Shown here: positions 11,407 through 63,088 of the stretch, in pieces
How the letters are laid out: each line of letters begins with the position of its first letter
Position numbering within the stretch: the stretch's first letter is position 1
Origin: Acidithiobacillus ferrooxidans ATCC 23270
GTDB lineage: Bacteria; Pseudomonadota; Gammaproteobacteria; Acidithiobacillales; Acidithiobacillaceae
Direction: 5' to 3'
NCBI RefSeq assembly: GCF_000021485.1
Contig: NC_011761.1
Location: forward strand, 1,952,001-2,016,000
Length of the DNA: 64,000 nucleotides
The notes under the pieces: generated by a model
Databases searched by the model: none
Seen by the model: the letters and a program-made list of their open reading frames with translations, nothing else
Told to the model about the DNA's origin: nothing
Made by a program: the position numbers and the translations under genes

Positions 11407-11491
11407 GCGAGAGTGGCGGAATTGGTAGACGCACTGGATTTAGGTTCCAGCGGTTACGGCCGTGCGAGTTCGAGTCTCGCCTTTCGCACCA
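11407..11491 (+). tRNA. tRNA-Leu (anticodon UAG)
   Basis: The acceptor arms GCGAGAG (11407-11413) and CTTTCGC pair with one G-U. The D arm contains TTGGTAGA, and the T arm contains GTTCGAGTC. The anticodon stem CTGGA/TCCAG encloses TTTAGGT, giving anticodon UAG. The long variable arm is that of a class II (Leu) tRNA. The 3' CCA is encoded. Confidence 0.97.
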
Positions 11492-59463: not shown

Positions 59464-59997
59464 TTACGCGTCCCCGGAAGATCTGACAGAAACCATCACG
59501 CCGGCACAGATCTGATCCAATGGAGTGTCGGGCGGAACCATCAGGACCGGCACCTTCAACGTCAGACTCAGTTTGGCGCCCAGGCCACCCAGCAAATGCG
59601 GCAGACCAAGGGGTCTGCTCTCGGTGCCATAGCCACGCTGGCCCACCACCACCATGATGATATGCGGATCCTGCTCCACCAACCTGGGGATTTCCACCTC
59701 GGGAGCACCTTCGACCAGATAGTATTCCGGCAGGAGAATGCCACAGTGTTCCTGTATACGCTCTGCGACACCTCGCAGGTTTTCTTCCGCCTCGATGCGA
59801 GCATCCGCCAGCAGCCGGTTTTTGAGATCGCTGGAAAAAAGCCCACCGCCAAACCCCAGGGGCACCGTCGGCACCTGCAAGGTCGTCACCAGACCCAGAT
59901 GACCACCTAACAAGTGGGTAAAGCGCGCAGCCACCGCTGCGGCCAGCAGGGCATTTTCCGAACCATCCACGGCCGCCAGTATCACATGCTCGGACAT
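59464..59997 (-). CDS. Universal stress protein (UspA family)
   Basis: A 177-residue cytosolic protein. The start VILAAVDGSENALLAAAVAARF fits the Usp fold, but the ATP-binding G-2x-G-9x-G(S/T) is modified (VVGQRGYGTESRPLGLPHLLGGLGAK), so nucleotide binding is uncertain. It heads the operon USP-TSUP-TIGR02186 with one-base spacings, suggesting co-expression of a stress protein with the sulfur exporter. Confidence 0.85.
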   Translation of the reverse strand: MSEHVILAAVDGSENALLAAAVAARFTHLLGGHLGLVTTLQVPTVPLGFGGGLFSSDLKNRLLADARIEAEENLRGVAERIQEHCGILLPEYYLVEGAPEVEIPRLVEQDPHIIMVVVGQRGYGTESRPLGLPHLLGGLGAKLSLTLKVPVLMVPPDTPLDQICAGVMVSVRSSGDA

Positions 59998-60080: not shown

Positions 60081-60109
60081 TTGCATCCCAATGGAGGCTC
60101 TTTTACAAT
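60081..60109 (+). promoter_or_regulatory. Sigma70-like promoter of purH
   Basis: TTGCAT (60081-60086) and TACAAT (60104-60109) have a 17-base spacer. Transcription would start near 60116, just upstream of the structured leader. Confidence 0.65.
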
Positions 60110-60115
60110 GGCCTC

Positions 60116-60210
60116 ATTCCGCCGATGCGTGCGTTTGCATGGGCGTGAGCAAAACGCTCCCTCCATCAGGAGGTTTGGGTACGACAGGTCTCCTGATCGT
60201 ACCTTTTTTA
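60116..60210 (+). promoter_or_regulatory. Attenuator-like purH leader RNA
   Basis: Three stems exclude one another. CCTCC (60160-60164) pairs with GGAGG (60169-60173). ATCAGGAG (60165-60172) alternatively pairs with CTCCTGAT (60190-60197). The latter strand also belongs to the terminator at 60178-60209. An upstream hairpin GAGC/GCTC (60147-60159) may form part of a sensor. This is the architecture of a transcription attenuator or riboswitch; a short frame at 60125 (MRAFAWA, stop) has no ribosome site. Confidence 0.6.
60178..60209 (+). terminator. Intrinsic terminator in the purH leader
   Basis: GGTACGACAGG (60178-60188) pairs with CCTG-A-TCGTACC (60192-60203) as an 11-bp stem with one bulged A and loop TCT, followed by six T (60204-60209). 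It ends 37 bases before the purH start, so it would block purH unless an antiterminator forms. Confidence 0.85.
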
Positions 60211-60246
60211 GTTTGGACTGCCACTTTTTCGGAGGCCGTGGGATTT

Positions 60247-61812
60247 ATGGGTGAGATTACAAGGGCGCTCATCAGCGTTTCCGACAAGCGGGGCGTTGTA
60301 GAATTTGCCCGGCGGTTGCAGGATTTTGGGGTAGAGATACTCTCTACCGGCGGTACCGCCAAAGCTCTGATGGCCGATGGTGTCGCGGTGCAGGAAGTGG
60401 GCGACTACACGGGTTTCCCGGAACTACTGGAGGGCCGCCTCAAAACCCTGCACCCCAAAATCCACGGCGGACTGCTGGCGAAGCGCGACGACAGCAGCCA
60501 CACCCGGCAGATGGCCGAGTACGGCATCCCCGCGATCGATCTCCTCTGCGTCAATCTCTACCCCTTCGCCGAGACCATCGCCAGTGCCGATTGCACACTG
60601 GAAGAAGCCATGGAAAACATCGATATCGGCGGCCCGACCATGCTCCGTGCGGCGGCGAAGAACTGGGAGGGCGTCACTGTCCTCGTCGACCCCGATGACT
60701 ATGCCGCTGTGTTGCAGGAAATGGAACAGAGTTACGGCGGCGTCGGCGCCAGTACCCGCTTCCGCCTGGCCACCAAGGTCTTCGCCCACACGGCGCGCTA
60801 TGACGGTGCTATCGCCAACTATCTCTCCAGCCTGGGTCCCGATGGCAACCGGACAACCTTCCCGCAGACTCTGTCCCTGCAATTTAAGAAAGCGCAGGAT
60901 CTGCGCTACGGCGAAAATCCTCATCAGGCCGCCGCCTTCTACCGCGATGGCAGCGGCGGCGGACTGGCGGACGCCCATCAGTTGCAAGGCAAGGAACTGT
61001 CTTACAACAATATCGGGGACGGTGATGCCGCCGTCGCGCTGGTGATGGAATTTGCCGAACCCGCCTGTTGCGTGGTGAAGCATGGCAATCCCTGCGGCGT
61101 GGCCGTGGGGCCGGATCTGCTCGGTGCCTATCAGCGCGCATGGGCCGGCGATCCGATATCCGCCTTCGGCGGCATCGTCGCCTGTAACCGGCCGCTGGAT
61201 GCACAGACTGCCGAACTCATTAGCGATCAGTTCATCGAGATGGTACTGGCGCCCGCTATTTTGCCCGATGCCCGGCCCATTCTGGCCAAAAGGAAAAACC
61301 TGCGGGTGCTCGCCTTTGACGATGGCCGCGCCTGGCGGCGGACAGGCTGGGATTACAAGCGTGTGCGGGGGGGGTTGTTGGTACAGAACTTTGACCAGGC
61401 CATGGAAGCGGAAACGGACTGGAAAGTGGTCTCGGAACGCGCACCGACGGTACAGGAAGCCCGTGATCTCGCCTTTGTCTGGCGGGTCGGTAAATACGTG
61501 CGCTCCAACGCCATTGTCTATGGCCGAGAAGGCCAGACCGTCGGCATCGGTGCAGGACAGATGAGCCGGGTGGACGCGGCCAGATGCGGCGTAGCCAAGG
61601 CCCTGGAACTGGGCTTCGATCTGCACGGGGCAGCGCTGGCTTCTGACGCGTTCTTCCCCTTCCGCGATGGGATCGATGCGGCGGCGGCTGCGGGCGTAAA
61701 GGCGATCATTCAACCCGGCGGCTCCATCCGCGATGAAGAAGTCATCGCCAGCGCCAATGAACACGGCATCGCCATGGTCTTCACCGGCGTGCGCCATTTC
61801 CGACATGGTTGA
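60247..61812 (+). CDS. purH: Bifunctional AICAR transformylase/IMP cyclohydrolase
   Basis: A 521-residue enzyme performing the last two steps of IMP synthesis. The N-terminal IMP cyclohydrolase domain has [42 protein letters not shown] and [16 protein letters not shown]. The transformylase domain has [20 protein letters not shown] and [10 protein letters not shown]. The open frame extends to 60091 without a stop, but homology begins at ATG 60247. It is preceded by the attenuator-like leader and followed by purD, so the leader would control both. Confidence 0.97.
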
Positions 61813-61825
61813 GGAGGGAGCGCAG

Positions 61826-63088
61826 ATGGGCGCGAAAGTCATGGTCCTCGGCAGTGGCGGACGCGAACATGCCATCGCCTGGAAGCTGGCCCAGTCGGCG
61901 GAGGTAGCGAAAGTCTACTGTATGCCCGGCAATCCCGGTACGGCGGCCGAGGCCAAAGTCCACAATCTGGCCCTGAAGCCGACGGATGCCGACCAGGTGG
62001 TCGCTGCCGCCCGTGCGTTGAACGTCACGCTGGTGGTCATCGGCCCCGAAGCCCCACTGGTGGCGGGTGTAGGTGATGCGCTGCGCCGGGCTGGCATTCC
62101 CGTCTTTGGTCCCAACGCCGCCGGGGCGATGCTAGAGGGTAGCAAGGCCCACGCTAAATCCTTCATGGTGCGGCACGGTATCCCTACCGCCCGTTACGGA
62201 CGTTTTGACGATACCGACGCGGCCCTTGGCTACCTGCGTGACCAGCCGTTGCCGGTAGTGGTCAAAGCCGACGGCCTCGCCGCCGGCAAAGGAGTCGTCG
62301 TGGCTGTGGAGCGGGCCGAAGCGGAAGCAGCGGTGCACCAGTTCCTGAAATGGGGTCCTATCGTCATCGAAGAATTTCTGGAGGGGGAGGAAGCCAGCTT
62401 CATCGCCATCGTGGTGGATGGTCAGGTGTTGCCGCTGGCGGGGTCGCAAGACCACAAGCGTCTGCTGGACGGCGATCAGGGTCCCAATACTGGCGGCATG
62501 GGTGCCTATTCCCCCACCCCCATCCTTGATACCGCCATGAGCGAGCGGGTGTTGCGCGAAGTGATGCGCCCGGCAGCGCAAGGATTGATGACAGATCGCA
62601 CGCCCTACTGCGGGTTTCTCTATGCCGGTCTGATGATCGGCCCCACCGGACCCAAGGTGCTGGAATTCAACTGCCGACTGGGCGATCCCGAGACACAGCC
62701 GCTGATGATGCGCTTGCGGTCCGACCTCTATACGCTTCTGCTGACCGCGGCCCGCGGCGATCTGCTACCGACGGCTCTCGACTGGGACAGTCGCGCTGCC
62801 CTCTGCGTCGTATTGGCGGCTGACGGTTATCCCGATCATCCACAGACGGGTGACCCCATCTGCGGTCTCGACGAGACGCAGGGGGATACTGTCAAAATCT
62901 TTCATGCCGGAACTCAGGCGCGTGACGGCACCGTCATCACCGCGGGTGGGCGGGTGCTGGGCGTCACGGCGTTGGGAGAAAATCTGGCGATCGCGCAACA
63001 ACGTGCCTATGCGGCCGTCGCCGATATCCGCTGGCGGGGCTTGCAGTACCGGCACGACATCGGCCACCGCGGCCTGCGGCGTGCCTGA
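61826..63088 (+). CDS. purD: Phosphoribosylamine-glycine ligase
   Basis: A 420-residue ATP-grasp enzyme that joins glycine to phosphoribosylamine in purine synthesis. [19 protein letters not shown] is the N-terminal nucleotide-fold motif; [16 protein letters not shown] and [12 protein letters not shown] are ATP-grasp elements; [22 protein letters not shown] and [13 protein letters not shown] are the catalytic signatures. ATG 61826 has GAGGAGGGAG upstream. Gene order purH-purD is conserved in proteobacteria. Confidence 0.97.

Follow-up and report, generated by a model that had tools for sequence, protein, structure and literature searches.

Organisation of the purH-purD leader

The window analysed here is a stretch of 64,000 nucleotides (nt) from Acidithiobacillus ferrooxidans ATCC 23270 (contig NC_011761.1, positions 1,952,001 to 2,016,000), whose genome is a single contig of 2,982,397 bases, and our subject is the leader of its purH-purD genes. 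purH lies at 60247..61812 (NCBIfam TIGR00355, 698 bits) and purD, the second gene, at 61808..63088 (TIGR00877, 501 bits), both on the plus strand and both above the cut-off, and the leader element sits between them and a divergent open reading frame (ORF) of 177 amino acids (59464-59997, minus strand) that has no NCBIfam match. As judged from the sequence comparisons below, the leader is probably an attenuator that responds to a small RNA (sRNA) rather than a riboswitch.

A sigma70-like promoter, TTGCAT-17-TACAAT, can be read by eye at 60081..60109 of the plus strand (-35 at 60081-60086, -10 at 60104-60109), and transcription would start near A60116. An earlier note, made from the letters of this DNA alone and called here the sequence-only reading, had already placed a promoter there. 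It is plausible by eye and recurs at the same position in 15/15 same-genus sequences read, though not in other genera; a consensus promoter scan does not list it, and its -35 matches 3/6 positions by reading.

The same note had proposed three mutually exclusive hairpins in the leader, and all three are present, both by sequence and by folding, on the plus strand. The small hairpin, P3 (60160..60173, CCUCC-AUCA-GGAGG, arms 60160-60164 and 60169-60173), has 5 pairs at -7.0 kcal/mol. The intrinsic terminator (60178..60209) is, as claimed, an 11-pair stem followed by six T (60204-60209), with one bulged base, A60196, and a predicted energy of -14.3 kcal/mol; its arms are GGTACGACAGG (60178-60188) and CCTG (60192-60195) plus TCGTACC (60197-60203). 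The antiterminator (60165..60197), described as using half of the terminator stem, forms 8 pairs between ATCAGGAG (60165-60172) and CTCCTGAT (60190-60197), or AUCAGGAG with CUCCUGAU in the RNA. Terminator, antiterminator and P3 use common bases and so exclude one another. Folding also gives a 5' hairpin that the note overlooked, P1 (60120..60145), the sequence of which differs among species while the hairpin persists (mean z -2.2 over 24 genomes, 21/24 below -1.5; the weak folds are L020, L024 and L007, with z of 0.0, -0.7 and -1.3). The leader as a whole (60116-60210) folds at -44 kcal/mol against -26.4 (standard deviation, sd, 3.1) for shuffled sequences, a z of -5.7 that 0/200 shuffles reach. 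Between 59000 and 62500 the terminator consensus scan lists 5 terminator-like sites, this one included, against a mean of 2.6 (sd 1.7) in shuffles, so that on its own the scan is weak.

Conservation of the leader

The comparison set comprised 31 genomes of the order, labelled G000 (the window's own) to G030, of which G029 and G030 belong to the sister family and G011, G019 and G024 are of low completeness (81%, 71% and 61%). PurH was detected in 29/31, and its start is readable in 28; one contig begins 18 bases upstream, leaving 27 genomes with the full upstream region. A 56-nt core of the leader is present in 24 of these 27 and absent at purH in G020, G029 and G030. The 23 other purH-linked copies read are 96-100% identical to the window's core, at distances where the third codon positions of purH, compared over its first 150 codons on the assumption that these contain no indels, agree with the window's at 39-61% in 17/23 genomes and at 73-88% in 6, and where the 100 nt upstream are 57-71% identical in 21/23 genomes by a gapped alignment, which inflates identity. 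The leader element is thus far more conserved than its surroundings, which is stronger than what the sequence-only reading had claimed.

This invariance limits what the stems themselves can tell. Terminator and P3 pair in 100% of cells in the 24 sequences; the one alternative pair seen is U-G in place of U-A, in 5 of them, and the 5 pairs of P3 are all invariant. The antiterminator pairs in 191/192 cells of the purH-linked copies, where slid versions pair in 25-63%. As the arms hardly vary, there is no covariation in the three stems, and the search for compensatory changes that had been suggested finds the arms kept in 24 copies and too invariant for covariation either way.

A covariance model of the core, run over the 31 genomes with the best 150 candidates scored per genome, gave strong matches (at least 66 bits) in 26, 25 of them at 88-95 bits; that of G012 lies at a contig end, so that a link to purH is at most presumed there. 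Weak matches at L069, L071 and L072 were judged chance from their alignments, and another, in tandem in the sister family (L067), was set aside, its likeness to the model lying mainly in the terminator region. The L067 locus of G029 holds, at 2108-2165 and 2262-2319, two near-identical tandem sRNA-like units of its own, each GUUUCUUUCCUCCUUUGUGG followed by a GC-rich hairpin and a T run. Among 84,980 species genomes an exact 20-mer of the core occurs on 19 contigs, 17 of them named Acidithiobacillus or Igneacidithiobacillus and the other 2 from metagenome-assembled genomes that we take to be G023 and G012, of the same family; none of the genome contigs outside that family carries it, and a search of plasmids for the core returned no match. 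A class-wide pattern search matched 4/369 genomes; two of the four lie outside the family and show 2 mismatches, and as the reversed control matches 5 genomes these two are likely chance.

No family of Rfam 15 matches the leader at gathering score, and for the covariance model of the ZTP (pfl) riboswitch the same holds when E is relaxed to 10, which bears out the earlier view of the element as a candidate new one distinct from ZTP. The one match to the leader at lax E (up to 10) is a spurious snoRNA on the opposite strand. The sole Rfam match in the window at gathering score is a tRNA gene at 11407-11488. With regard to a leader peptide, and considering frames within the core only, the core is without ATG; TTG is found in 24/24 sequences and GTG in 5/24, and an extra base shifts the frame in 1/24.

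An sRNA-like family complementary to the leader

Weak matches of the leader model in G001, G010, G015 and G016 are antisense to a conserved, tandem, terminator-bearing locus, as read in G001 and G016. Read on its own strand, this sRNA-like locus has the repeat GGAAATATTCYCGAAAYAT followed by a -10-like box. The 5' segment comes next, with GGUACCCAAACC and, about 12 nt further on, GGAGCG; the middle varies, the 3' module after it, GUAGCGGUUGUUUUGCGGCUAUU, is nearly invariant, and a terminator and its T run close the unit. The upstream repeat, GGAAATATTC-GAAA, is an OmpR/PhoB-like direct repeat. With a predicted promoter of its own, an intrinsic terminator with a T run and a conserved locus, it has the features expected of a trans-encoded sRNA. 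Rfam, searched at E up to 1 on eight loci, five of them with the sRNA, reports nothing on the sRNA, and no family reaches its gathering score on any of the eight.

The 3' module, allowing up to 3 mismatches, is found in 27/31 genomes, and G023, which the module search missed, carries a diverged copy upstream of orn, recognised by synteny; 50 sRNA-type copies were counted in 28 genomes. Left out of the sRNA counts were 8/57 module copies that stand behind other loci, at least some of them behind coding genes, and are without GGAGCG (duplex energies -18.8 to -31.6). At L115-L122, near the middle, the module (again with at most 3 mismatches) precedes unrelated terminators behind other loci, at least some of these being coding genes, and this recurrence suggests a shared 3'-end or RNA-chaperone-binding module in the family. 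Both pairing motifs are present in 41/50 copies, from 27/28 genomes, the exception being G011, which has a single copy near a contig end. A search with the motifs alone (CCCARRYY-GGAGCG) was discarded: 7/7 genomes match, including two without the sRNA, and the reversed control matches too. As the motif alone is uninformative, the sRNA was identified by locus and 3' module.

In the window's genome the locus lies between an OmpR/EnvZ-like gene pair and orn. Copy 1 has its motif 1 at C1:2066515-2066526, beyond the window and about 54 kb away from purH, and copy 2 comes after it. Of the two divergent genes next to the locus, one is OmpR-like, with 224 bits against a cut-off of 331, and the other EnvZ-like, with 189 bits against 415, so that neither reaches the score for naming. 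Copy 2 (L124:6719-6880) has lost GGAGCG and most of the complementarity, and may have another target. An Slp-like lipoprotein gene (58 bits, below cut-off; L124:3767-4327) adjoins the EnvZ-like gene. We considered whether the regulator is the OmpR studied in A. caldus; it seems to be another gene, the cloning primer given in the consulted part of that report corresponding to MAKARI (PMC9861516), as against MAVVLIVDDD at the start of the regulator next to the sRNA.

The two RNAs occur together in 26/31 genomes, for wherever there is a strong leader match the genome also holds an sRNA copy that carries the two motifs. In G011 and G019 the sRNA family is present without a leader match, and G024 has neither. 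The sister-family genomes G029 and G030 possess orn and have no strong leader match, no module and no such sRNA in the approximately 650 nt before orn.

Two sites in the leader, each invariant in 24/24 sequences, are predicted to be contacted: CGCUCC (60155..60160, plus strand) by GGAGCG of the sRNA, and GGUUUGGGUAC (60172..60182, plus strand) by its CCCAAACC motif, the latter site overlapping the 5' arm of the terminator by GGUAC. In the predicted duplex CCCAAACC of the sRNA pairs with GGUUUGGG of the leader, and GGUUUGGGUAC stands opposite GUACCCAAACC. The direction of change within the first motif is telling. All 11 of its positions pair in 28/41 copies, and at positions 4-11 the 26/26 changes seen in 41 copies, of seven kinds, keep the pair (C to U opposite G, A to G opposite U), where 19/20 changes at positions 1-3 break it; the motif window in this count was chosen to maximise pairing, which counts against reading too much into it, and a check in fixed register is weaker. 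In that register, without pairing optimisation, 30/43 GGAGCG sites qualify, and 7/8 kinds of change are transitions against 21/56 kinds in the flanks (spacer and downstream), a difference with Fisher p 0.01 by kinds, the copies being related and cell counts not independent.

By energy, 38/49 sRNA copies outdo all of 200 shuffles in their pairing with the core, in a comparison that used the sRNA cut at 95 nt and thereby removed the motif in G019 and G020; with a longer sRNA stretch the duplexes of these two reach -38.3 and -39.6. Net of unfolding, copy 1 of the window's genome binds its own nascent leader at -17.3 kcal/mol and the complete leader at -7.3, and copy 2 at -6.7 and -2.4. These net energies were obtained with a 105-nt sRNA for nine copies from five genomes (G000-G004); the rest come from an 85-nt stretch, which lacks motif 1 of own copy 1. 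The case for pairing is built on the conservation of the locus, on co-occurrence and on the direction in which the motif has changed, and energy is no part of it; on that footing we hold it very probable that RNA-RNA pairing between sRNA and leader is under selection.

Discussion

The leader and the sRNA-like family are conserved, complementary and found together, and the pairing site overlaps an arm of the terminator. A mechanism that would accommodate these observations is antitermination controlled by the sRNA. By default, P3 and the terminator would form and an RNA of about 95 nt would be released. The sRNA family would be transcribed from the promoters with the OmpR/PhoB-like direct repeat beside the OmpR/EnvZ-like pair, and its 5' end would pair with the leader at CGCUCC and GGUUUGGGUAC, opening P3 and covering much of the lower terminator stem; AUCAGGA could then be freed to pair with UCCUGAU, and polymerase would read into purH-purD. 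Folding is in part consistent with this. With GGUAC blocked, the terminator hairpin is left with -4.6 kcal/mol of its -14.3, and if the block is confined to the two sRNA sites, AUCAGGA/UCCUGAU, the outer 7 antiterminator pairs, is part of the best fold. When 60155-60183 is blocked throughout, no antiterminator forms and a 4-pair hairpin remains. Neither blocked state, in these models, would retain a proper terminator.

That purH-purD itself is the controlled unit is argued mainly by distance: the T tract ends only 31-60 nt before the start of purH in 24/24 purH-linked copies, and since this leaves little room for another promoter, transcription of purH should have to pass the terminator. Of the earlier suggestion of an attenuator or riboswitch, the attenuator is supported by this spacing and the riboswitch is not favoured. 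The further suggestion that the leader senses a purine intermediate, folate or a protein has given way to a better-supported partner, the sRNA-like family complementary to the invariant core, with a ligand or a protein retained as improbable.

Several observations weigh against the mechanism just outlined. The state with 60155-60183 blocked throughout is one of them, and the predicted duplexes do occupy part of AUCAGGA. GGUAC is fully paired in 28/41 copies and to the extent of 3-4 of its 5 bases in the other 13, the upper stem CAGG staying uncovered; every copy in eight genomes (G017-G023 and G025) breaks one or two pairs at the terminator-stem end, and in these the overlap argument is weakened because the stem overlap is only 3-4 of 5 bases. 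The sRNA would also have to bind while polymerase makes about 25 nt. As to the pairing itself, 9/50 sRNA copies are without GGAGCG, copy 2 of the window's genome pairs poorly (z -2.0, 6/200 shuffles reaching it), at least 8 of 11,632 window segments (-39.7 to -38.0) beat the leader's -35.3 in duplex energy, and the pattern CGCTCC-GGTTTGG occurs 4 times in the same genome against 7 for the reversed control. The leader being invariant, there is no two-sided covariation with the sRNA, and AUCA and the terminator sequence are more invariant than pairing would require. Taken together, we lean, by a modest degree, towards antitermination of purHD, in the manner of the designed RNAs discussed below, as the main result of the pairing. 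Production of both RNAs, their timely meeting, the ensuing readthrough and control of the sRNA by the neighbouring regulator are steps we infer from the arrangement of the sequences.

The alternative that deserves most discussion is that the terminated leader is a trans-acting sponge or decoy for sRNAs, its effect on purH being secondary and the activity of the purine promoter setting sRNA levels. It draws on G020, which is without the element at purH and has a stand-alone copy without the antiterminator arm, a circumstance that also speaks against the antitermination mechanism, since it points to a function apart from purH. The stand-alone element has P1, P3, the sRNA site and a rebuilt terminator, and stands behind an ORF that is similar to the slp-like gene found in the genome of the window; a phosphoesterase-like ORF, whose best NCBIfam matches stay below cut-off, follows after about 266 nt. 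The sRNA of G020 is altered to CCCAGAUCUUCUGA with the predicted pairing kept, it pairs with the stand-alone copy at -41.3 kcal/mol, and a second, weaker element (25.6 bits) exists elsewhere in that genome. This one case suggests that the antiterminator arm may be dispensable where no gene follows, and that action in trans may be open to the RNA too. Against a sponge as the primary role, the 24 purH-linked copies retain the antiterminator arm and stay within a short distance of purH, and the pairing site overlaps a terminator arm, which a sponge does not need; we regard it as rather unlikely, and the sponge and antitermination roles are in any case compatible with each other. Two features of G020 may be recorded in passing: the ORF resembling the Slp-like gene that adjoins the stand-alone element is at L065:1390-2205, and the weaker element (L066:2737-2793, minus strand) is diverged and stand-alone, with a different terminator, upstream of a short ORF.

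A new metabolite riboswitch, with the invariant core as aptamer for folate, a purine intermediate or the like and with complementarity to the sRNA as a secondary matter, would explain why invariance extends beyond base-paired positions (AUCA, UUUGG) and why the element precedes purH; yet one copy, that of G020, lies away from purH in an unrelated neighbourhood, complementarity to the co-occurring sRNA explains much of the invariance, and the exact core 20-mer is confined to one family, and we consider this reading very improbable. A small conserved hairpin before a terminator is typical of attenuators of the PyrR or TRAP kind, and a protein that binds P3 or the core and shifts the balance would fit that much, though it leaves the matching sRNA motifs unexplained; no candidate protein was seen, none having been sought, and we give such a protein scarcely any weight. 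Lastly, binding of the sRNA might promote termination, or only change RNA stability, as is proposed for Rli21 at Listeria Rli51. A natural sRNA-attenuator pair of that sign is described in the consulted part of PMC11394854; for the leader considered here we think it highly unlikely.

We therefore return to sRNA-controlled antitermination and its implications. If it is true, a natural sRNA would here switch a gene on through a block of an intrinsic terminator, biomining bacteria would possess a long-lived sRNA family with a single target, and envelope signalling would be linked to purine synthesis. In its widest form, an OmpR/EnvZ-tied sRNA family would antiterminate purHD and would in turn be titrated by the terminated leader, so that envelope or osmotic signalling and purine synthesis would act on each other, an arrangement kept for the age of the bacterial family; this natural counterpart to the designed RNAs is an attractive possibility that we put forward tentatively, at somewhat less than an even chance.

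Comparison with known systems

The ZTP (pfl) riboswitch is likewise purine-linked and able to act on a terminator; the leader here differs in having no match to it in the Rfam scans. OmrA and OmrB are linked to an OmpR-type regulator, which invites comparison with the sRNA family described above. In E. coli they are twin sRNAs (PMC12692685), as are the tandem copies here, and their known targets are mRNAs; the likeness drawn here is one of description. Antitermination by sRNAs is described at rpoS and other 5' untranslated regions, where binding to the leader lets polymerase continue (PMC5652223, PMC6582626); in the portions of those reports consulted the process is Rho-dependent, whereas the purH leader has an intrinsic terminator. 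CyaR has an effect at the SgrS terminator that the authors, according to the part of the report at hand, took to be indirect (PMC9765468). In Listeria, Rli51 is a terminated 5' leader, itself an sRNA, that is bound by another sRNA, Rli21; as far as the same partial source goes (PMC11394854), binding is proposed to favour termination and takes place at a loop, and other genes and another phylum are involved.

Among the best-ranked open-licence papers listed, we met no natural sRNA that activates by blocking an intrinsic terminator, the mechanism being encountered in engineered form, for Rho, or with the opposite sign; nor did any of them describe this leader or this sRNA from Acidithiobacillus. 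The closest parallel is with small transcription activating RNAs (STARs), in which, per the excerpts considered, an RNA acting in trans is complementary to the stem of an intrinsic terminator in its 5' half, blocks the hairpin and turns the gene on (PMC5435934), and does so by design (PMC12281614). An RNA that pairs with the 5' arm of the terminator is what is proposed for the purH leader as well. The differences are that STARs are designed, whereas purH would have as its partner a chromosomal sRNA that is conserved and has a promoter of its own, that this sRNA covers only 3-5 bases of the stem, and that it would also open a hairpin upstream.
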